Notes under the pieces: generated by a model | The model's database searches: none | The model's input: only the letters and a program-made list of their open reading frames with translations | Told to the model about the DNA's origin: nothing | Position numbers and translations under genes: made by a program | Shown: piece by piece, positions 25,201-31,200 of the stretch | Layout of the letters: every line of letters starts with the position of its first letter | Numbering within the stretch: position 1 is the first letter of the stretch | Assembly: GCA_963931925.1 (NCBI GenBank) | Contig: OZ007571.1 | Coordinates: forward strand, 63,287,589 to 63,351,588 | Direction of reading: 5' to 3' | Origin: Onchidella celtica | Lineage: Eukaryota > Mollusca > Gastropoda > Systellommatophora > Onchidiidae | DNA length: 64,000 nt

Positions 25201-28200
25201 CCACTTTCTACAAGTGAGTGTCGCAGTTTTGTCAAATGTAATGGGGATCCGTGAAACATGCTTTTATATTTCTTTGTTTACTAGCTGAGTTACCCAGCCC
25301 TGCACGGGAGAAATATTTTTATTACTTTCAGTTTTGGGTGGTTGTCTTGGATCTGCTTCACCTTGCCTGTTCCTTTGGGTTTATGCTTTTGTTGTTGTTA
25401 TTGTTTGTGTTTGAAATGTCATTCTGCACTCCCTTTGTGCGTTTATGCCTGACGTACCCCGTCAGATCCTCATGAAATGGCAATAATTTGCTCACGGGAC
25501 AGTGTGTTTGATAGTGAACACATCACAGGAAGTGATGACGTCATGTGTTCAAGGAAAAGAATGGACTGTGGGAGAAATCAGCGACCTAATGCAAACTCAA
25601 AAAAATACTTCCCCACTATTTCTAGTCTCCGAATCTAAAAAAGAACAGCAAAAGCGGTTAGTCCAAATTGTTTTTTATTTTTGCGCAAAATTTCAGCAAC
25701 ATACGTTGCCAAATAAAGTCTGCAGGCTTGTCTAAAGTTTGTATAGGCTAGCATGAGTTTTTTTTGTTATACTAGATTTTGGTCACACAGCATTTTATGG
25801 AATTGTTGAGCTTGAAATTTCCTTAAAATACAATTGTCACTCGGTTATCAAAGTAAGGGGCCAATGGCCATCCATACAGTATGTTCGCTTGAAGAGGGGC
25901 AGAGGGGGTTGAAGCTCGATGCACGAAAAGTATGCTGGGGGGGGGGGGGTAAAAAATTGCCAGAATTAAGTGTATGCATCTCCTGGATGGCCCCTAGTTA
26001 TATTGATTCTTTTTTATTTATTCAGATATTTTAACACACATTGAAATTCTTACAGGAATATCGGTTTTTGCATTGGTTTCTCATACTAACAAAACAAGAA
26101 AAACAAACAGTGATTTTATTTGTATTGAAGTCATAATTATTTACTAGTATTACTTGCAGTATTTAATATAGAATTGTGAAGGCTGAAAATTTAACATAAG
26201 AAATGGTTGGGTTTCTTTCAACTTCAGTTTTTGTTGATATTCAGAAAAGAAGGGTACTATTTGATCTTGTTCAGTACTGAAGAACTGGGTTTTTTTTCAA
26301 ATAATTTGGTCTAATCATTATTGTTTACAAAGTACAAAGAAGCTAGACACGATCATGTTACAGTGTAACAAATAAAAAATCAGTTCTGTGTGATTTAGTG
26401 TGAAATATGAGCCTATGTAAAATTTGAGATAATAATAGTTCGTCCATCAGGTATGATGATGACCTTAACAACACCAGAGGAATAAAGAACAGAAATTGTT
26501 GAGAATTTCAACACATGGACAATAAAGAGAACTAAAGGACACAGAGGACAGAATGGAAAGACTGTTCTTTCATGACTTATGGCTTCTCATGTGACTGATA
26601 AGTCCTATTTTTGCCCTGCAGACCCTTCCGCATAAATGACAAGAGTGCTCCGTTGGTTCAGTACCACTGGGCCTTTTCTTGCGCCGTTCTCTTTTTTTGA
26701 TAGCCTGCTGGACTCTGTCAGCTTCCCATGCTTTGCTGCCTCTGGTAAGGGCCGCCCTCCAATTTGCACGATCAAGCGAGAGCTTTTCCCACTCACTCAC
26801 ATCAATGGCAAAGGCCTTCAGTGATTGCTTGAGAGTGTCTTTGTAACGTCTCTTTGGGGCCCCAACATTCCTCGTTCCATTGGAGAGCTCAGAGAAGAAG
26901 ATTTGCTTAGGGAGTCTGGAGTCGGGCATTCTGACAACATGTCCTGCCCAACGTAGCTGAATTTTTTTCAGGTGGCAGAAGATGCTCAATTCCTTGGCAC
27001 GATTGAGGACCTCAGTGTCTGGAATTTTATCCTGCCATTTGATCCTTAGGATCTTTCTAAGGCAGGCCAGATGAAAGTGATTTAGCTTTCTGGCATGCGA
27101 TTGGTACACTGTCCAGGTTTCAGCACCATAGAGTAGGGTGGGAAGGACCACAGCATTGTACACTTTCAGCTTAGTGTCTGTGCGAATGCCAGCAACATCC
27201 CATACTCTCTTTCGAAGCCTGCCAAATGCAGAGCTGGCTTTGCTGATTCTTGAGAGAATTTCAGTATCAACACGAGCCGCGGAAGACAGTGTACTGCCAA
27301 GATAGGTGAAGTTCTCCGACACCTTCAGAAGACTGTCATGGACTTTGATATTTGGGGTCACAGGATACTTGTCGTCTGGAGTAGGCTGATGGAGCACTTC
27401 CGTCTTCTTTGTGCTTATTGTGAGGCCAAAGTTGTCACAGGCACTAGAGAACTTATCAACACAGTTTTGCATGCTATCCTCATCGTGTGCCAGAAGTGCA
27501 CAATCATCAGCAAATAGTAGGTCACAGACTTGAGTACTTTTGGTTTTGGTTTTTGCCTGAAGTCTCCTGAGGTTGAATAGACTGCCATCAGTTCGGTACT
27601 TGATGCTTACCCCTTGAGGAGGAGAGCTAAAGGCTTCTTGTAGCATTGCAGAGAACATGATGCTGAACAGAGTTGGGGCTAAGACACAACCCTGTTTTAC
27701 CCCATTTGTGACAGCAAAGGGCTCTGAAACACTGCCGTTGCTTTTGACTGCAGCTTGCATGCCATCATGAAACTGGCGCACTATTGTGATGAATTCGGGT
27801 GGACACCCAAACTTCGCCAAGATTTTCCCGAGGCCTTCACGACACACTGTGTCAAATGCTTTTGTGAGGTCAACAAATGTGATATACAGCGCTTTATTTT
27901 GTTCCATGCATTTTTCCTGAATCTGTCTAGCAGCAAAAATCATATCCGCCGTTCCCCTCTCTTTACGAAAGCCACATTGGCTCTCGGGAAGCAAGTCATT
28001 TGACGAGAGGTGATCAAGAAGGCGATTCAGAAGCATTCTTGCCAATATTTTGCCAGCAATTGAAAGTAGAGAGATTCCCCGATGGTTGTCACAGACTTGG
28101 CTGTCCCCTTTGTTTTTGTACAGATGGATGATTGAAGCATCTTTGAAGTCCTGTGGCAGCTTCCCTGCTTTCAACATATGATTGAACAACTCGGTCAACC

Positions 28201-31200
28201 TTTCAATAAGCTTTTCTCCACCGAAGGCATACACCTCAGCAGGAATTGAATCCACGCCTGGTGATTTGTTAAAGGACATCTGATTTGTGGCAGTTCGGGT
28301 CTCATTTGCTGTGAATGGCTTGGCAAGAGCTGCATTAATAGGAGTCTGAGGGAGGCGATCAATGGACTCAGTATTTATATTTGATGGCCGATTTAGCACA
28401 CCTCCGAAATGTTCTGCCCAACGCTGAATTATGGCATTCAATTCAACAATGCGTGTTGAACCATCTGACGCAAGAAGTGGCGTAGTGCCAGAGCGGGATG
28501 GTCCAAACACAGCTCGGAGGCTCTCAAAGAACTTTCTAGTGTTGTTTGTGTCGGCATATTTCTGAGTTTCTCTTACTCGCTCTTCAAGCCAGTCATTTTT
28601 CATTTTCCTCAGCTTCTTCTGGAGTACACCCTTACATGCACGCAGTGCATCAGCTTTTGCTGTGGAAGAGGGGTCACTGCAGTGAGCTTGGATGAGACTA
28701 TTTTTTTCTTTGATGAGCACTTTGATTTCATTATCATTATCATTGAACCAGTCCTGGTGCTTGCGGACAGGAAAACCAACTGTGCTGCTGGCGCAAGAAT
28801 GTACAGTCGTATTTAGGTCAGTCCAGCTCTGTTCAATGTTCTCAGGGTCAAAAGTCACGCAATCCAATTTTGAGGAGAGTTCTGATGAGAGCTCGCTCTG
28901 TTTCTCAGCTGAGCAGAGTTTTGAAACATTTAGGCGTTTAGGTGGCGCTTTCCCTTGAGGGCGTCTATTGCGCCTCAATGTTAGTCTGAGCTTGCAAACA
29001 ATGAGTCTGTGGTCAGTTCCACACTCGGCACCACACATCGCCTTTGTTACAAGGACATCCTTTCTGTCAGTCTTCCTCACAATGACATAGTCTATGAGAT
29101 GCCAATGCTTTGAGCGGGGATGCATCCATGACGTTCTGTTTCTCACGGGGAGACTAAAATTTGTGTTGGTAATGAACAGGCCAAATTCAGCGCACAAAGT
29201 AAGTAAGCGCAACCCATTGTTATTGCATGAACCAGAGTTGCATGAGGGCCCAAAACATTTGGCCACGCTGAGATTTCGGAGCCAACCCTAGCATTGAAGT
29301 CCCCCAAGAGAATCAGCTTATCAGCTGCCGGGACAGAGCATATGACAGATTCTAGATCAGAATAGAACTTGTCTTTGGCTTCATCTGGGTTTGTCATGGT
29401 GGGCGCATATGCGCTAATGAGGGTGGCTGACTGGCTTTTCCCAACTGGGATCCTGAGTGTCATTAGCCTGTCATTTATTTCAATTGGCATGGACTGCAAG
29501 TTTCTGACAAGGTCATTTTTAATTGCAAACCCAACACCATGCTGTCTCGGTTCGACTGCACCCTTGCCTTTCCAGAAGAAGGTGTATCCACCACTGAGCT
29601 CTTTGAGTTGGCCACTATCAGGGAGTCTGGTCTCACTGAGTGCCACTATGTCCAGGTTGTACCTGCTGAGCTCAATGGCAATAAGTGCAGTGCGTCTTTC
29701 CGGGTTGTTTGAGTTGTCCTGTAGTGTGCGTATATTCCAGGCTCCTAGCCTGAGTAAGCTGAATTTCTTTTTGTTTCGACCGCAAAAAGGGATCCCCACT
29801 GGTCGCGGTATACCAGTCAGGGTGATGTGAAGTGGGCTTTCTTTAGGGCACCTTTTCTAGCCCCTTCCTCAGTTGAGGTGAGCAGTGCTATCCTTAAATA
29901 AGGCTGCTCAGCTACTGTGGGTGCTGCCTCCCCACGCCTCCACTTCAATCGACGATGAAGCGACCATAGCCCACAGCCACCAACGTGTAGGTCTGTGCTA
30001 ACAGCTTCCAGTCTATCCAAACCTGCTGCCACCGCACTCGCCCATCGCCGTTGGAATTTTGAGAGGAAAGAAGACGAGACAAAGATGAAAGAAGACGAGG
30101 TGAGTGTTAAGACTGGCGCAAAGAATTTGTTTTTAGTGAGAAAGAGCTGCGCAAACATCAGACTCACTCTCTCGCCTGGACACAACTTATCCAAGTGGCA
30201 AGACAGGGTCAAGACGACTGGAAATGTATCCAGGTGCAGGAGGATGCCAGAGGGACAGTCATATTGCCTGACCGGCTGCCTGTAGGCTACTCCACAGCCT
30301 CGCAGTCCCAACTGACTAGGGTGAAAGACCCAAACCAAAGAACACCAATACTGGTGGATGCTCTGTGTCACGATATCCAGGCCAGAGTGACGGTATATTG
30401 CCATCTGCCCTATCAATCAACCACTGGCCTGCTGCCGCCAGCTTCGAAGCTGCGTCCGGGAAGTTTGCTCAATTCTTCGTCTGTGATTTAGGCAAACAAG
30501 CCTATGACCACACCGCTACCGGGGGCAAATATGAAGGACTCAAGTACTGAGGGTCACATTGTGCCTAGCATGTGGCCGTTGGGTTAGATGAAACCTCCTC
30601 CGCCCTGGCCGTTTGCACCGACAGGTGCACGCCCACTGATACCATGCTAGCGTACCAGTTCATGAAACAGGTTGTACTGGATTACATGTTACCAGTAGCA
30701 GATTTTTCTGACCTGACAACAAAAAATTTGAGATATATATATATAATTGTATGATTCTGAAAAAAACACTTCTACAATAATTGAGTCAGCGATAATAATT
30801 TTATCATAAATCATTTCTTCGTCATTGATTTTCAGGAAGCTCAAATTATGAAGATGCTCAGGCATGACAAGTTAGTGCGTCTCTATGCAGTATGCACACA
30901 GGAGGAGCCCATTTTTATTGTGACTGAGTTGATGTCCAATGGGAGTTTGCTCGAGTACTTACGCAATGATAAGCACAGACTCATAACTCTGACACACTTG
31001 ATAGACATGGCGTCACAGGTAGGCATGGTGGTTTTGGAGTTGTCGGGGGCAGGAATAAAACGTCTTCCTACACTATATTCTTTGTGACTCTGTTGTTTGT
31101 GTAAGAATGTGTTTAAGGAATCAAAATAGTATTATTGAAATTATTTATGTTAATGTCAGAATGACTTCGTACATCGTGTCAGTAAATGCTACTTTTAAAC

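Follow-up and report, generated by a model that had tools for sequence, protein, structure and literature searches.

The window analysed here is the whole of a stretch of 64,000 nucleotides (64 kb) of Onchidella celtica DNA, located at G000:C5:63287589-63351588 in a 1.14-Gb assembly of 43 contigs. It contains a gene for a Src-type kinase, one intron of which holds, on the opposite strand, a long interspersed nuclear element (LINE) encoding an endonuclease (EN) and a reverse transcriptase (RT). This LINE is probably a recent insertion of a young family (family 1) whose RNA begins with a fold resembling that of subclass 1a Xrn1-resistant RNAs (xrRNAs) of flaviviruses, at which we infer that the exonuclease Xrn1 would halt. 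A preliminary description of the same DNA dealt with the insertion and is right in substance; by itself the insertion is that of an ordinary young LINE, and the main discovery is the 5' structure. The features on which the argument depends are the following, with positions given in the window.

25214..30835, plus strand: host intron holding the insertion, 5622 bases, splice sites read from the sequence, kinase exons on either side
26432..30722, minus strand: LINE of 4291 bases, opposite in orientation to the kinase gene and lying between target-site duplications (TSDs)
26419..26431, unstranded: TSD on the element's 3' side, 13 bp, exact repeat
30723..30735, unstranded: TSD on the element's 5' side, 13 bp, exact repeat
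30661..30718, minus strand: candidate xrRNA-like fold at the element's 5' end (Rfam RF01415 below gathering score, and structural scan)

The exons around the intron encode VAIKTLKEG...FLQ and EAQIMKML...MASQ, and the host protein is represented by SH3, SH2 and tyrosine-kinase pieces with the start MGNCLGS, as in a Src-type kinase. The number 7 given to the intron in the preliminary description agrees with the motif-based set of exon pieces, provided that counting starts from the MGNCLGS exon, and the statements that the element is antisense, makes up most of the 5.6-kb intron (4291 of 5622 bases) and is bounded exactly by identical 13-bp duplications are likewise upheld. Both TSDs read AAAATTTGAGATA, a sequence with exactly two occurrences in the 64-kb window, only at the two element edges; as two copies of it arose in none of 100 dinucleotide shuffles of the window, a chance origin of the pair is rejected. 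The G + C content of the element is 47.5% compared with 36.5% and 23% in the intron flanks.

The 5' region of the element (~0.86 kb), on which the preliminary description made no remark, opens with the candidate fold. Over its first ~62 bases the element is laid out like a subclass 1a xrRNA of flaviviruses, with a three-way junction, a single C and two pseudoknots (PK1 and PK2): helix P1 would pair CAGGU/ACCUG and P2 CAGA/UCUG, with the single C, P3 (UACUGG/CCAGUA) and CA, and in family 1 PK1 would be UG/CA and PK2 CAUG/CAUG. For subclass 1a, the accessible part of the source gives a P1 of 5 bp, a P2 of 1–9, a P3 of 4–8, a conserved C between P2 and P3, a two-base PK1 with a G-C pair, and a U...A-U triple (PMC7527734). 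Compared with this part of the description (PMC7527734) and with the corresponding Rfam family (RF01415), the LINE folds share a P1 of 5 bp, a P2 of 4 bp, the single C, a P3 of 5–6 bp, the two-base G-C PK1 and a PK2 located 3' of P1; bases corresponding to the U...A-U triple can be assigned by analogy but not from a structure. In contrast to the viral RNAs, the LINE fold stands at the 5' end of a cellular element and not in a viral 3' untranslated region (UTR), and its Rfam scores lie below gathering.

A descriptor of the published 1a features (P2 of at least 3 bp, PK2 of at least 4 bp), written after the candidate had been seen, has a single match on both strands of the 64-kb window, namely the 5' end of this element; one more, at 47165, appears when PK2 is not demanded. 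In 240 shuffled windows three matches with PK2 arose, a rate of 0.0125 per window; dropping the PK2 requirement raises this to 0.07. Rfam scans, carried out on 1.2-kb stretches with the whole library (4227 families), gave RF01415 (Flavivirus_SLIV) as the best hit for family 1, covering model positions 1–75 of 75 and starting at the element's first base. A covariance model of the family 1 5' end was also run on 40 sources: its 29 strong matches, two of them partial, all fall at element 5' ends, and four further matches of 10.7–11.6 bits lie elsewhere; these are no independent test, since the model was built from family 1 itself.

The same layout recurs in three other LINE families of this genome. 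A pattern of the family 1 fold has 1065 genomic matches vs 59 for the reversed pattern; among the 100 matches listed, 86 are family 1, two family 3, one family 4 and 11 none of these. Changing the fifth P1 pair from U-A to C-G gives the family 2 pattern, with 1325 genomic matches vs five when reversed, and among the 100 of these listed (all on C1) 97 belong to one new family and three do not. Ten copies of family 2 were examined (the first seven plus three variants): P1, P2 and the single C are present in all ten, P3 has 6/6 pairs in nine and 5/6 in one (L050), and in seven PK2 is formed by an unrelated pairing of 8 bp. Nine of the ten have 5' flanks that differ from one another; the flank of L049 (G000:C1:42526540-42526891) resembles, by eye, an inverted copy of family 2's own start. 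In L051, representing family 3, P2 is CAGC/GCUG, P3 is UACUGU/ACGGUA with one G-U, and PK2 has 4 Watson-Crick bp, or 6 with one G-U by eye; P3 has 5/6 pairs in a second copy of that family (L053). L052, representing family 4, has P2 CAGC/GCUG and P3 UACCG/CGGUA.

These families are far apart from family 1 in protein sequence. Over the main stretches, amino-acid identity to family 1 is 42% in EN and 48% in RT for L041 of family 2 (28% in its EN-RT linker), 45% and 42% for L051, and 46% and 41% for L052, and DNA similarity to family 1 was not found for families 2 and 3 and is limited to 49 bases for family 4. On this divergence the four families are to be regarded as old. Candidate TSDs lie close to the fold in L041 (11 bp, 3 bases from the fold's TGTCAGG) and L051 (14 bp, A-rich, 1 base from TGTCAGG), and that of L052 is of low complexity. 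The single C and the two-base G-C PK1 are found in representatives of all four families, and PK2 remains complementary with a clearly different sequence in two of the other three (families 2 and 3). Pairs changed on both sides are P3 pairs 3 and 6 (families 1/2), P2 pair 4 (family 1 vs 3/4) and P3 pair 4 (families 1/4). Read from the sequences, an xrRNA-like layout with compensating changes is present at the 5' terminus of four LINE families.

The fold is probably real and, by analogy with the viral RNAs, a block of Xrn1 is likely. We propose that Xrn1 would degrade, in the 5'-3' direction, either the LINE RNA itself or a longer transcript (host or read-through) that includes it, and would halt at the fold; the surviving RNAs would start 1–7 bases ahead of P1 with the element complete, and once trimmed they would presumably be translated and copied, acting both as mRNA and as template. 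P1 begins at element position 8 and most family 1 copies start at positions 1–7 (27 of 40 by BLAST), an offset at which, given the usual halt distance of Xrn1, trimming would be expected to stop. In this way the fold would play the part that self-cleaving ribozymes play at the 5' end of R2. R2 and some other LINEs carry 5' ribozymes of the hepatitis delta virus (HDV) type; the present elements resemble them in having a 5'-terminal structured RNA, which would fix the first base of the transcript, and differ in that Rfam reports no known ribozyme at this end and that the mechanism proposed is an exonuclease block instead of self-cleavage.

Translation of an uncapped RNA would have to start in an unusual way, and this agrees with a missing ATG: the EN-RT frame has none before its EN motifs in family 1, nor in the one long copy read of family 2 or of family 4. 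This link is loose because in L051, of family 3, an ATG stands right before the EN motif. The missing ATG, together with the position of the structure at the terminus, is also what speaks for a different function, in which the conserved structure would act as a promoter or initiation element, a binding site for a LINE protein, or part of a cap-independent translation signal for the AUG-less frame; internal promoters at LINE 5' ends are established. We regard such a function as unlikely. The details kept between families (the single C, the CA before P1', the U-A and G-C of PK1, and a PK2 that remains complementary while its sequence changes) are those given for the Xrn1-resistant flavivirus fold, and the ATG of L051 tells against such a function.

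A chance resemblance, in which an ordinary recent LINE insertion merely looks like an xrRNA and the families resemble one another by inherited sequence, is improbable. Wherever stem positions differ they differ in pairs: in an alignment of eight rows (three of family 1, five of family 2), 99.2% of 120 cells pair, against 23–46% when the columns are slid by 1–3, and the number of doubly changed cells (six) and the covariation score were each reached in 0/500 shuffles. Two inner P3 pairs were left out of this count because MAFFT had misplaced them, and the shuffle figures are not probabilities because the rows are related. PK2 has been rebuilt with different sequence in families 2 and 3, the 5' sequence has been kept while the protein diverged to 41–48%, and the descriptor is rare in shuffled sequence, as given above.

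A number of observations weigh against the xrRNA interpretation, and several of them favour chance resemblance. The Rfam scores are weak with respect to the gathering score of RF01415 (54.5): 20.9 bits (E=0.76) in family 1, and, again as best hit and over positions 1–75 of 75, 28.0 bits (E=0.025) in family 2 and 22.2 bits (E=0.4) in family 3, with no RF01415 match up to E=10 in family 4 or in a 23.6-kb scan of four other family 1 copies with their flanks. Folding that ignores pseudoknots favours a different hairpin (-15.9 vs -10.8 kcal/mol for P1-P2-P3) and the region folds little or no better than shuffled sequence (z -1.37 for 69 bases, 0.02 for 83 bases). P1 and most of P2 are invariant across families, so that the layout may partly be inheritance without structural constraint; the double change of P1 pair 5 is imposed by the search patterns, and as many doubly changed pairs as observed (two) are reached in 324/500 shuffles. 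PK2 is only 4 bp long in family 1, where CAUG is self-complementary, and only 4–6 bp in three of the ten family 2 copies; in L052 it is weak, with 3 bp by eye and a script's best of 4 bp further away. For each of families 2, 3 and 4 one long copy was read (L041, L051 and L052, respectively), their TSD candidates are A/T-rich or repetitive and lack a chance control, and 18 of 40 copies of family 1 have no exact TSD of at least 8 bases by script. Finally, clustered 5' ends also fit a transcription start site.

With somewhat more doubt than confidence, the xrRNA interpretation can be extended beyond this genome: flavivirus-type Xrn1-blocking RNAs may be an old, standard 5' part of an animal LINE group, in which the 5' end would be set by the stop of a decay enzyme and not by a promoter, an AUG-less frame would be translated from uncapped RNA, and viruses and LINEs would share the fold by transfer or convergence. 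Natural xrRNAs are described as features of RNA viruses in the accessible parts of the literature (PMC7527734, PMC8571300, PMC13161572), and no report of an xrRNA in a retrotransposon was found in literature searches that had preprints and most subscription papers outside their scope. If true, the proposal would explain in a new way how a LINE sets and protects its RNA's 5' end when no promoter at base 1 is relied on, would supply very many natural sequences for the study of the xrRNA fold, and would raise the question of the origin of viral xrRNAs.

The age of the insertion was estimated by comparing the window copy with 39 other copies of family 1 (40 in all). The 39 were chosen by likeness to the window copy from a listing of 41 rows (808 first-look candidates, 40 scored), and the one remaining row, a 125-base inverted fragment beside L036, was left out; L036 (G000:C15:1844000-1849200) has at one end this inverted second fragment of the same element. 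The main alignments of the 39 copies to the window copy are 98.6–99.6% identical, and the median pairwise difference among copies is 0.91%. The window copy has six private columns of 4300 (three substitutions and three indel columns), four of which form one cluster at 29236-29240; two of the three private substitutions lie beside the private indel, and only one of the 40 copies has fewer private substitutions. The element is thus recent and nearly intact, as had been proposed. A disablement model applied to the window copy alone gives a divergence since insertion of 0.15–0.4%, with an upper bound of 0.7–1.9% depending on the indel rate assumed.

Variants of the EN-RT frame shared by at least two copies comprise 36 synonymous and 25 nonsynonymous changes, a per-site ratio of 0.23, and all variants together give 0.75, which points to functional source copies followed by near-neutral decay after insertion; in the portion of the frame before the first Met the shared variants (two synonymous, four nonsynonymous) are too few to tell. 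Family 1 is young and numerous and probably still active. The copy in the window would have entered the kinase intron in antisense orientation by target-primed reverse transcription; a single clustered change in the EN, private to this copy, would have broken it during insertion or shortly afterwards. The contrary explanation, an old element whose 898-codon frame inside the intron of a conserved gene is kept open by selection for a host function, is hardly credible in view of the three private substitutions in 4300 columns, the perfect TSDs, the copy-specific frame break and the roughly one thousand similar 5' ends at other places in the genome.

Besides the 27 copies that start at element position 1–7, BLAST starts fall at 181–203 in five of 40, and the remaining eight start at 13, at 19 (beside Ns), at 109 or at 988–1262; 38 of the 40 main alignments extend to the element's last base. 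The differing 5' ends suggested by a first search, which matched only query positions 11–3268, were a limit of that search, as local BLAST shows. The narrow starts at 181–203 (L010, L020, L031, L032 and L033) might represent a second RT stop site or a trimmed RNA end. Two of the 27 copies, L021 and L022, have extra GGTCA units ahead of the start, and GGTCA-like units before or within the 5' end also occur at G000:C1:10159434, 16091770, 23594682 and 92942305, suggestive of repeated copying at the start of the template. Several copies of both family 1 and family 2 have short extra bases (TA, TAC, CTA) immediately ahead of the element (e.g., L013, L016, L034, L041, L044).

The remaining features of the element are listed below.

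29817..30416, minus strand: open frame of 199 codons in the 5' region, probably noncoding
29241..29856, minus strand: N-terminal part of an apurinic-type endonuclease (PF03372, E=4.2e-14)
29236..29240, minus strand: cluster of changes private to this copy, interrupting the frame within the endonuclease
26570..29266, minus strand: 898-codon frame without a stop, with C-terminal endonuclease motifs (IDYV, TDH), RT and a C-terminal C2H2 finger
27290..28108, minus strand: RT domain (RVT_1, PF00078, E=3.4e-36), residues 387–659, coordinates derived from residues
26579..26647, minus strand: C-terminal C2H2 finger (PF00096, below cut-off), coordinates derived from residues
26432..26569, minus strand: 3' UTR of 138 bases with a TTA-type tail

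The preliminary description had reported an RT frame open for 898 codons and a C2H2 finger closing the protein, and both are confirmed; the finger scores below the Pfam cut-off (20.9 bits, E=4.6e-4, cut-off 25.2) and has the spacing C-X2-C-X12-H-X3-H, read from the sequence. Its single frameshift was correctly placed, with the correction that this does not separate the endonuclease from the RT: the break falls inside the endonuclease, since the upstream piece spans only profile positions 2–168 of 225 of PF03372 and IDYV and TDH, which we take to be endonuclease motifs, lie downstream of it, with GDFNAR upstream. The remainder of the endonuclease is weak by Pfam in the first 110 residues of the RT frame (Exo_endo_phos_2, E=0.13, outscored there by an unrelated Pfam family), and no PDB chain matched the endonuclease piece at E 0.001 or better. 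At each of the four break columns all 39 other copies agree against the window copy. A search of the genome for copies free of the frameshift, suggested in the preliminary description, did find them: in 16 of 40, endonuclease, RT and C2H2 finger form one open frame of 1094 codons. As in the window copy, no ATG precedes the endonuclease motifs in these 16, the first Met being codon 122. The 199-codon frame overlaps the endonuclease frame upstream of it, and an equal or greater length arose in only 6 of 2000 shuffles; it is not called a gene because it shows neither codon bias nor signs of purifying selection at the protein level, and a coding ORF1 (first open reading frame) in the 5' region is not supported.

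With an apurinic-type endonuclease, an RT and a C-terminal C2H2 finger, the element appears to be an RTE-like LINE. An endonuclease domain ahead of an RVT_1-type RT, TSDs whose length varies and a 3' tail mark it as a non-LTR retrotransposon. The nearest solved protein in a PDB search is L1 ORF2p (~105 bits), vs at most 57 bits for R2. LINEs of the RTE superfamily (RTE/BovB, RTE-X, Proto2) have in common with it an apurinic-type endonuclease and an RT in one frame, a short 3' UTR, a trinucleotide tail, TSDs mostly beginning with TA and having a T stretch 10–12 bases upstream, and probably the lack of a supported ORF1. Exact TSDs of at least 8 bases were found in 22 of 40 copies; their first base is T in 20 of the 22 and their second A in 15, and T occupies 44 of the 66 positions from -12 to -10 (background 35%, p about 1.6e-7). 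A Tn-TA insertion signature is described for RTE-clade LINEs in the accessible part of PMC13295347; the TA part is weaker here than the T stretch because microsatellites make up some of the sites and the element's own tail ends in TTA. This TTA tail varies among copies. Unlike RTE elements, so far as the accessible parts of their descriptions go, the studied LINE carries a C-terminal C2H2 finger and a 5' xrRNA-like fold. Nothing specific was found in the literature on such a clade with a C2H2 finger, pattern searches for relatives in viral and genome contigs gave 8 and 18 stretches, respectively, none of them confirmed, and a structured 3' end gave no signal (z -0.17 and -0.74).

Other repeats occur elsewhere in the window. 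A second, different LINE fragment (RVT_1, DUF6451) lies at 11892-12809 on the minus strand and shares 29% identity with the studied RT across an alignment of 311 positions. Remnants of a third RT-bearing element are found at 4064-4895, also on the minus strand, with tblastn matches to the studied RT at 4145-4375 (E=2e-6) and 4806-4895 (E=0.31), and a Mutator-like element (MULE) transposase with a FLYWCH finger and 410 open codons is located at 1346-2578 on the plus strand. A long degenerate tandem array of a 26-base unit (~31 copies, 33042-33846) sits between the last two kinase exon pieces found, and an array of 5.1 copies of an 86-base unit with 99% matches, at 42600-43039, represents a recent expansion.

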